From Actinomycetota bacterium (GTDB lineage: Bacteria; Actinomycetota; CADDZG01; JAHWKV01; JAOPZY01), in NCBI GenBank assembly GCA_035765775.1, contig DASTWV010000021.1, forward strand, positions 124,001-188,000: 64,000 nt of DNA, given 5' to 3'. The position numbers and the translations under genes are program-made. The notes beneath the pieces were generated by a model. It worked only from the letters and a program-made list of their open reading frames with translations. It was not told the origin of the DNA and did not search any database. This document shows, piece by piece, positions 61,365 to 63,617 of this stretch (position 1 is the stretch's first letter; every line of letters starts with the position of its first letter).

Positions 61365-62147
61365 CTACGGGTAGGGCAGCTCGGACGGGGCCACCGGGTC
61401 GGGGCCGGCTGGGGTGTCGCCGGCACCGTCCGGGGTGCCGTTGGCGCCGGCCGGGCCGCCGAGCGCCTGCTGGATGGCGTCGAGGAACACCTCCTCGGGC
61501 ACCGCCCCCAAGACCTCCAGCCGGTCGTTGATCACGATCTTGGGCACCGCCGACACGGCGTAGGCCTGCGCCATCTCGGGGAACTCCTGCGCCTCGATGG
61601 AGGCCGAGCGCACGTTCGGGCTCGCCAGCGCCAGCCGGTGGGCGGTCACGACCGCCCGGGGGCAGTGCGGTCAGGTGGGGGTGACGAAGACCTTCAGCTC
61701 GACGGGGGCGGGCAGCTGCGCCAGGGCCTCGACGGTCTCGGCGCTTAGGCCGTGGCCCGCCGCCGACCCGGCCGAGGCGATGGTCTCGATCAGCGAGGTG
61801 AACTCGTAGCCGTCGGGCAGGCCCACGAAGCGGACGCCGGCGTCCTCGGCGTCGGGGGTCCCGTTCGCTGGGGCGACCGAGAGCGTCGGCAGGCGGTTCA
61901 CGCCCCAGCGGGACGCCGCCTCGGGATCCTCCCGCACGTCCACGACCTTCAGGCGTAGGTGCTCGGACAGCGCCGCCAGCTCCTCGAGCAGCTCCTGGGC
62001 GGCGCCGCACGTCTCGCAGGTCTGCCGCCCGGGGACGTACAGTCCGGTGTCCGCCTCGGTGAACAGGCGCAGCTCGACGTCGCCGGCCAGCACCGTGGCA
62101 AACTGCTCCCGCAGGTAGGCGGAGTCCGTGTCGCTCAGAAAGGCCAT
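61365..62147 (-). CDS. Selenoprotein: two-domain thioredoxin/glutaredoxin-like protein disulfide oxidoreductase (UPHC)
   Basis: A 260-residue protein read through one in-frame TGA. Domain 1 (about 1-120) has CETC at 44-47; domain 2 (about 148-235) begins ELKVFVTPT, then TGA at 61673-61671 as residue 159, then PHCPRAVVTAHRLALAS. In homologs this reads TPTCPYCPRAV, so TGA replaces the N-terminal active-site Cys, giving UxxC with C162 as resolving residue. SAVPKIVINDRLEVLGAVPE is the cis-Pro region of domain 2. A hairpin with SECIS features follows the TGA. The architecture is that of PDO/glutaredoxin-like disulfide oxidoreductases. TGA is used as a normal stop in many neighbours. Shares its promoter region with the other selenoprotein gene. 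Confidence 0.85.
61640..61657 (-). promoter_or_regulatory. Bacterial SECIS-like hairpin downstream of TGA 61671-61673
   Basis: Minus strand: 13 bases after the TGA, GGGCGGT pairs with ACCGCCC (perfect 7-bp stem) around the loop CGTG. The loop starts 20 bases after the TGA with G in its second position, within the range of known bacterial SECIS elements. Confidence 0.75.
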
Positions 62148-62231: not shown

Positions 62232-63617
62232 ATGGCTGAGCCGAAGCGGGGTCGGGACATCGTCAAAGAGGCCAGGGCGGAGGTCGAGCCTCTCGAACTG
62301 GAGCAGCTCAACGACATCATCCGGCGCCGGGAACCGGTGACCATCGTCGACGTCCGGGAGGGCGACGAGTGGCGGGCCGGGCACGTGCCGGGTGCCATCC
62401 ACATCCCCCGGGCCTACCTCGAGCTGCAGGTGGACGACGCCCTGCCGGACAAGGAGGCCCCCGTCATCCTGTACTGCGCCGGCGGCAACCGCTCCGCCAT
62501 GGCTGCCCGCACGCTGCGGCAGATGGGCTACACGAACCTGCGCTCGCTGACCCGGGGCTTCTCCGGCTGGCGGGACGGCGGGTTCAGCGTCGTCGTGCCC
62601 CGCAAATGGACGCCCGACCAGCGGGAGCGCTACTCACGCCACTTCACCCTCCCCGAGGTCGGCCAGGAGGGCCAGGCCAGGATCGCCGACGGCAAGGTGC
62701 TCGTGGTGGGGGCCGGCGGCCTCGGCGCGCCCGCCCTCTACTACCTGGCGGCGGCGGGGGTGGGCACGCTCGGCATCGTGGACTTCGACGCCGTGGACAT
62801 CTCCAACCTGCAGCGCCAGATCATCCACTCGACGTCGCGCATCGGGATGAACAAGGCCGAGAGCGCTCAGCAGACCATCAACGACCTGAACCCGGACGTC
62901 AACGTGCGGATCTGGACCGAGCGGCTGACCCCGGACAACGTCGAGGCCATCGTCTCGGACTTCGACGTGGTCATCGACGCCACCGACAACTTCTCCACCC
63001 GCTACATGGTGAACGAGGCGTGCGTGCGCCACGGCATCCCGTACGTCTACGGATCCATCTTCCGCTTCGAGGGCTACGCCAGCGTGTTCTGGCCCGCACA
63101 GGGGGCGCCGTGCTACCGCTGCTTCTATCCCGAGGCGGCCCCCGACAACCTGGCCCCCACTTGAAACGAGGCCGGGGTCCTGGGCGTGCTCCCAGGCATC
63201 GTCGGTGTTGTGCAGGCCAATGAGGCTCTGAAGATCCTCGTCGGCTACGGCGAGCCGCTCACCGGGCGGCTGCTGATGTTCGACGCCATGCAGACCAGCT
63301 TCCGCACCCTGAAGCTGCGCCGCGACCCGGAGTGCGCCACCTGCGGCGCCCACGCCGAGGCCTGGCAGGCATGGGAGGAGGGGCAGGCCGGGAAGTCAAG
63401 GGGGCCGGCGAAGGAGGCGGTGGCGGTGCGGATGGATTCGCTGCCGGCGGCTGGTCAGTCAGCTGCTGCGCCTGCAGCCGAGCCCGCCAGCGCCAATGGC
63501 GCCAATGGCGCCCATGACGCCGATGCCGCTCATGCGAACGGGGCGAAGGCGAAAGAAGGCAAGACCAAGGACAAGGCCAAGCACAAAGCAGGCAAGGCCG
63601 CTACCTCTTCCGTCTAG
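62232..63617 (+). CDS. Selenoprotein: rhodanese-MoeB/ThiF-type E1 adenylyltransferase with Sec at the conserved Cys
   Basis: A 461-residue protein read through TGA at 63162-63164 (residue 311). Order: rhodanese domain (about 15-125; VTIVDVREGDEW, active-site C82 in YCAGGNRS), then an E1/MoeB fold (about 128-375) with GAGGLG at 160-165, SNLQRQIIHST, DATDNFSTRY, zinc cysteines C294/C297 (CYRC) and C368/C371 (CATC). Between the zinc pairs the sequence is PDNLAPT-U-NEAGVLGVLPG; homologs read APSC-x-EAGVLG, so Sec replaces the conserved Cys that acts in acyl/persulfide transfer in MOCS3 and ThiF-like enzymes. A Lys/Ala-rich tail ends the protein. Rhodanese precedes the E1 domain, the reverse of MoeZ. 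ATG follows GGGAGAGG. Confidence 0.85.
63179..63196 (+). promoter_or_regulatory. Bacterial SECIS-like hairpin downstream of TGA 63162-63164
   Basis: 14 bases after the TGA, CCTGGG pairs with CCCAGG (6-bp stem) around the loop CGTGCT. The loop begins exactly 20 bases after the TGA and starts with CGTG, as in the other selenoprotein gene. Confidence 0.75.

Follow-up and report, generated by a model that had tools for sequence, protein, structure and literature searches.

An in-frame TGA in the gene of a rhodanese-fused MoeB/MoeZ-type E1 enzyme almost certainly encodes selenocysteine (Sec) in place of the crossover-loop cysteine, as the earlier note on this DNA had proposed. The gene lies in the window, the 64,000-nucleotide stretch of an Actinomycetota genome that was analyzed here. 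Codon 311 is assigned to Sec because TGA and Cys codons pair at this position across the class, a hairpin is conserved at synonymous sites, the Sec machinery is complete, and a second selenoprotein gene is the direct neighbor. The whole account, in which a true selenoprotein of this architecture uses Sec instead of the crossover-loop Cys and thiocarboxylates its carriers, has in our estimate a probability of about 0.8.

The coordinates of the E1 gene, its neighbor, and the associated elements are collected in Table 1. The reading frame of the E1 gene is interrupted by a single internal stop, the TGA, and then stays open for 150 codons up to a TAG, confirming the frame first described in the earlier note. 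With the TGA read through, Pfam returned one unbroken ThiF match across it (277 bits; the truncated part scored 218), and the segment after the TGA matched the ThiF C-terminus by itself (E 1.4e-9). The protein scored 522.5 bits with the NCBIfam model NF006444 (MoeB), above the curated cut-off of 449. In the alignment, C82, the GAGGLG region (the ATP-site motif), D252, and the cysteines C294, C297, C368, and C371 are invariant or nearly so; from what is known of MoeB and ThiF, we take the C294/C297 motif to be a zinc site.

Table 1 Features of the E1 selenoprotein gene, its divergent neighbor, and the selD cluster.
Feature	Position	Strand	Basis or remark
Rhodanese-MoeB/ThiF E1 selenoprotein gene, 461 residues with U311	62232..63617	+	Frame, Pfam, NCBIfam NF006444
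N-terminal rhodanese domain, residues 24-114	62301..62573	+	Pfam PF00581
Rhodanese catalytic Cys82, codon TGC	62475-62477	+	C82 invariant in 34 aligned proteins
ThiF/MoeB adenylation domain, residues 134-369, unbroken across the TGA	62631..63338	+	Pfam
First CxxC, presumed zinc site (C294, C297)	63111..63122	+	Invariant in alignment of 34 proteins
In-frame TGA, predicted selenocysteine U311, crossover-loop position	63162..63164	+	Alignment to catalytic-type Cys of MoeB, ThiF, and Uba4; codon in homologs
SECIS-like hairpin, CCUGGG-CGUGCU-CCCAGG	63179..63196	+	Conserved in Sec forms; nt 18-35 from UGA
Second zinc CxxC (C368, C371), 3′ of the TGA	63333..63344	+	Invariant in alignment of 34 proteins
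Protein disulfide oxidoreductase (PDO) selenoprotein, PDO/glutaredoxin type (AhpF-N-like), motif UPHC	61365..62147	-	TIGR02187
In-frame TGA (Sec) of the PDO gene, at the redox motif	61671..61673	-	Frame and TIGR02187
SECIS-like hairpin of the PDO gene, GGGCGGU-CGUG-ACCGCCC	61640..61657	-	Compensatory stem changes in G001 and G137
selD-mec-cysO-cysM cluster	L136 3222-6758 (G000:C32); class counterparts L141-L163		

The 150 codons after the TGA, with the second CxxC among them, had been put down as lost if the TGA were a stop. The number of codons and the presence of C368 and C371 stand, but only ~60 of these residues form a conserved core, and the remainder is a low-complexity tail without counterpart in relatives. 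This tail (63348–63614, + strand) is rich in Ala, Gly, Asn, and Lys and is long only in the window's protein. In the predicted structure, pLDDT is below 50 for residues 390–458, and confidence is also reduced in residues 301–320, as expected of a flexible crossover loop. A different, Cys-bearing C-terminal tail follows C371 in the outgroup Cys forms (EYDDLCMPH, DYEAFC, PEFVC) and is absent class-wide, whether the form has Sec or Cys; within the class, a Cys occurs in the tail of G001 alone and is unrelated to the outgroup one. The outgroup tail Cys could act as a resolving residue, with Sec having assumed its function in the class.

In the alignment, residue 311 falls on the crossover-loop Cys of E. 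coli MoeB, ThiF, and Uba4. The enzyme was found in 22 of the 24 genomes of the window's class, and the codon, read in each homolog, is TGA in 17 and TGC in five. Homologs with the same TGA, which had been suggested as a check on the Sec reading, therefore do exist; they are distinct sequences from several families and genera, the other TGA forms being 54–76% identical to the window protein, and such a recurrence is, judging from the sequences, more than chance. Within the window's order, TGA stands at this codon in all eight genomes. The residue before the site is Thr in every TGA form (LAPTU) and Ser, once Asn, in the Cys forms, so that the replacement of Cys by TGA is real but is not the only change, as had been claimed. 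Forms read from other parts of the phylum and from Acidobacteriota and Myxococcota have Cys (TGC or TGT where the codon was inspected); one scan of genome contigs for a Sec form outside Actinomycetota gave Cys forms only, and the relatives in plasmid records were all below 60% identity. A TGA considered in G148 is the normal stop of that gene, with Cys at the site. In a tree built with the site masked, all 22 class enzymes form one clade (support 100/99), and at least three Sec/Cys switches are required, most simply four, which counts against the account given here. This topology fits one gain of Sec at the base of the class followed by several reversions to Cys, a direction that we infer.

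Each of the 17 distinct TGA forms has the RNA sequence GUCCUGGGCGUGCU at an identical position, and in nearly all of them the 3′ stem arm is CCCGGG or CCCAGG, giving a 6-bp hairpin with a CGUGCU loop (63185–63190, nt 24–29 counted from the U of UGA). Where the Sec forms share a residue, codon identity is 100% at positions +5 to +8 and 0.88 at +9, against a gene-wide mean of 0.54, while at the hairpin codons of the class's Cys (TGC) forms it is 0.20–0.40. The most conserved of the 119 eight-codon windows of the Sec forms begins at +5. The hairpin is too invariant to show covarying pairs (none had both sides changed, and two sequences break one pair); its support is conservation at synonymous sites, not covariation. 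An Rfam scan of the window returned two tRNAs only and no match to a SECIS family.

The PDO gene lies 84 bp upstream of the E1 gene, in divergent orientation. Its protein scores over the cut-off of TIGR02187 (PDO_seleno_TRX), and its TGA is retained in G001 and G137. The CGUG loop of its hairpin is at nt 24–27 from the UGA, the same offset and loop as in the E1 hairpin, and compensatory stem changes were seen among three genomes (GGGCGGU/ACCGCCC, GCGCUGU/ACAGCGC, and GCGCCGU/ACGGCG). The minimum-energy fold of the window's PDO copy is the CGUG hairpin on 54 nt and a different fold on a 59-nt stretch. As the SelD hairpins are without a CGUG loop, no genome-wide loop rule is claimed.

The genome of the window encodes two tRNA-Sec, SelB, SelA adjoining SelB, and a SelD with its own in-frame TGA. 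Among the 24 genomes of the class, SelD was found in 23, SelA in 21, SelB in 20 (at a threshold of E ≤ 1e-60), and tRNA-Sec in 16. selA, selB, and tRNA-Sec were not detected in two genomes with the TGA form, G072 (98% complete) and G169 (83%), a point against the Sec reading, although both assemblies are fragmented. The two tRNA-Sec genes (L108 3940–4029 and L109 363–452) each lie near a similar ABC transporter gene pair. The in-frame TGA of selD (GUACK) is present in most class genomes, and Cys takes its place in G048 and in several Cys-MoeB genomes (G002, G126, and G148).

ThiS/MoaD-like carriers, whose presence elsewhere in the genome had been proposed as a further check, are represented by five ThiS-family proteins (ThiS/MoaD/CysO). 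CysO ends in VAGG, and mec and cysM are present too. A MoaD-MoaE fusion with an internal VAGG (L137 2821–3564) is reminiscent of mycobacterial MoaX. The genome has one rhodanese-E1 gene of this type, and no second MoeB-type E1 was found in it, the sole further ThiF-like match being partial and 23% identical; the enzyme is apparently the only sulfur-carrier E1 of the genome. With a single MoeB-type E1 and five carriers, it is simplest to assume that several carriers share the E1, as they do with mycobacterial MoeZR, which sulfurates both MoaD and CysO (PMC3227635). A multi-carrier E1 is very likely, and it would probably serve CysO, MoaD, and ThiS. A possible multi-ubiquitin-like and ThiF-type gene group (L005, G000:C10) is apparently separate from the sulfur-carrier E1.

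The genome being a 62-contig assembly, the TGA might be a sequencing error or a nonsense mutation that breaks the gene in this genome only, yet it recurs in 17 distinct sequences with identities as low as 54%, with the protein conserved on both sides and a frozen hairpin downstream. We regard this explanation as already refuted by conservation and give it next to no probability. A real stop is another reading, with the enzyme split into a protein of 310 residues and a second product translated from a restart at GTG 63186, and a GTG-started ORF does exist there (63186–63617). Such a stop would interrupt the crossover loop and take away helix 319–337 and two strands of the predicted structure together with half of the zinc site, and the restart would lie within the conserved EAGVLGVLPG stretch, whose first part would be lost; the residues on both sides are, moreover, conserved as in the one-piece Cys forms. 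A split enzyme is therefore very improbable, and so is the decoding of the TGA as a different amino acid, by Trp insertion or near-cognate read-through, since the residue paired with it is Cys, not Trp, and tRNA-Sec, SelA, SelB, and SelD are all in the genome.

With Sec at position 311, SelB would deliver the residue at UGA311, the E1 would use ATP to adenylate the C-terminal Gly-Gly of the CysO, MoaD, and ThiS homologs to carrier-CO-AMP, and the rhodanese Cys82 would hold persulfide sulfur, the expected product being a carrier with a C-terminal thiocarboxylate. What U311 contributes could take two forms. It may accept the acyl group as a carrier-selenoester, a step for which a selenolate, as the better nucleophile and leaving group, would be suited; but ThiF Cys184 makes an acyl-disulfide, and the redoxin genes adjoining the E1 point to a Se–S or disulfide step. 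The Uba4 C202 thioester with Urm1, which precedes thiocarboxylation (PMC7527816), speaks for the acyl acceptor, whereas bacterial MoeB and ThiF reportedly form no thioester (PMC12954526), and this role for Sec is one that we entertain only tentatively. We lean slightly toward Sec as a resolving or redox residue, because a redoxin gene adjoins the E1 gene in both families. As such, U311 would resolve a Cys82 acyl-disulfide or form an acyl-selenosulfide, as Cys184 of ThiF does with ThiS, and the Se–S bond left behind would be reduced by the neighboring redoxin. This would be the PDO selenoprotein in the window's family; in the sister family it would be a glutaredoxin-like CGHC/CGYC protein, the gene of which is directly upstream of the E1 in eight Sec-form genomes and one Cys-form genome. 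Uba4 retains partial activity when its crossover Cys is changed to Ser (PMC5349211), which, together with the reported lack of a thioester in bacterial MoeB and ThiF, suggests that Sec may enhance the reaction and not be essential to it. The earlier suggestion that Sec would change the sulfur-transfer chemistry is plausible.

The novelty implied by the earlier note was not supported. MoeB was reported as a predicted selenoprotein family from 11 Sargasso Sea sequences in 2005 (PMC1088965) and from 19 GOS sequences in 2008 (PMC2398784), and has entries in reviews of 2022 and 2026 (PMC9312934, PMC13188914), with MBT7809913.1 as an example. Since the family has been published since 2005, the window E1 is a new lineage of a known predicted family, not a first. 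By description, the published proteins are likewise MoeB/ThiF E1s with one Sec replacing a Cys and no CxxC-type motif given; their motif entry "-" and pfam05237 would be compatible with Sec at the corresponding Cys. They come from marine metagenomes, whereas the window E1 belongs to a class of uncultured Actinomycetota; set against the earlier ocean-DNA predictions, the feature is here shared throughout the class and adjoins a second selenium protein.

The domains and core residues of the window E1 are those of the NF006444 rhodanese-MoeB proteins and of mycobacterial MoeZR/MoeBR, but it has Sec instead of the crossover Cys, and its class is missing the Cys-bearing tail seen in outgroup Cys forms. 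Its rhodanese domain is N-terminal, whereas that of MoeZR is C-terminal. Uba4/MOCS3 also joins adenylation and rhodanese domains in a single chain, with a crossover Cys202 that aligns with U311, but differs in its C-terminal rhodanese, in having Cys and not Sec, and in its substrate, Urm1. Our literature search, which covered few subscription journals, found nothing on the actinobacterial lineage, the rhodanese-fused form, or a SelD-CysO link, and in the literature searched, selenium forms of E1-type enzymes are computational predictions only. The class offers a natural experiment: a single enzyme occurs with Sec or with Cys, the two have been exchanged repeatedly, the SECIS is defined, a redoxin gene is linked, and the carriers have been identified. 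The disputed role of the crossover-loop Cys in MoeB/Uba4-type E1s becomes directly testable.

The genes mec (JAB domain), cysO, and cysM come after selD in a cluster conserved within the class, an apparently undescribed linkage of selD to the CysO cysteine pathway. Of the 23 genomes with selD, 22 have mec next to it or close by, and the remaining case is at a contig end; cysO and cysM come next in 19 genomes, the window's among them, and in the rest the stretch read is too short to decide. Genomes with a Cys-form MoeB have the cluster as well, so that it is independent of Sec in the E1. It seems quite unlikely that the cluster and the U311 E1 together make up a selenium-linked CysO system, in which the carrier would hold selenium, as a selenocarboxylate, besides sulfur, and CysM and Mec would form free selenocysteine or else supply SelD with selenide. 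In the window's genome, a glyoxalase-family gene is inserted in the cluster. Throughout the sister family, the E1 gene is directly followed by a metallophosphoesterase gene (L123 7179–7661, L128, L129, and others).
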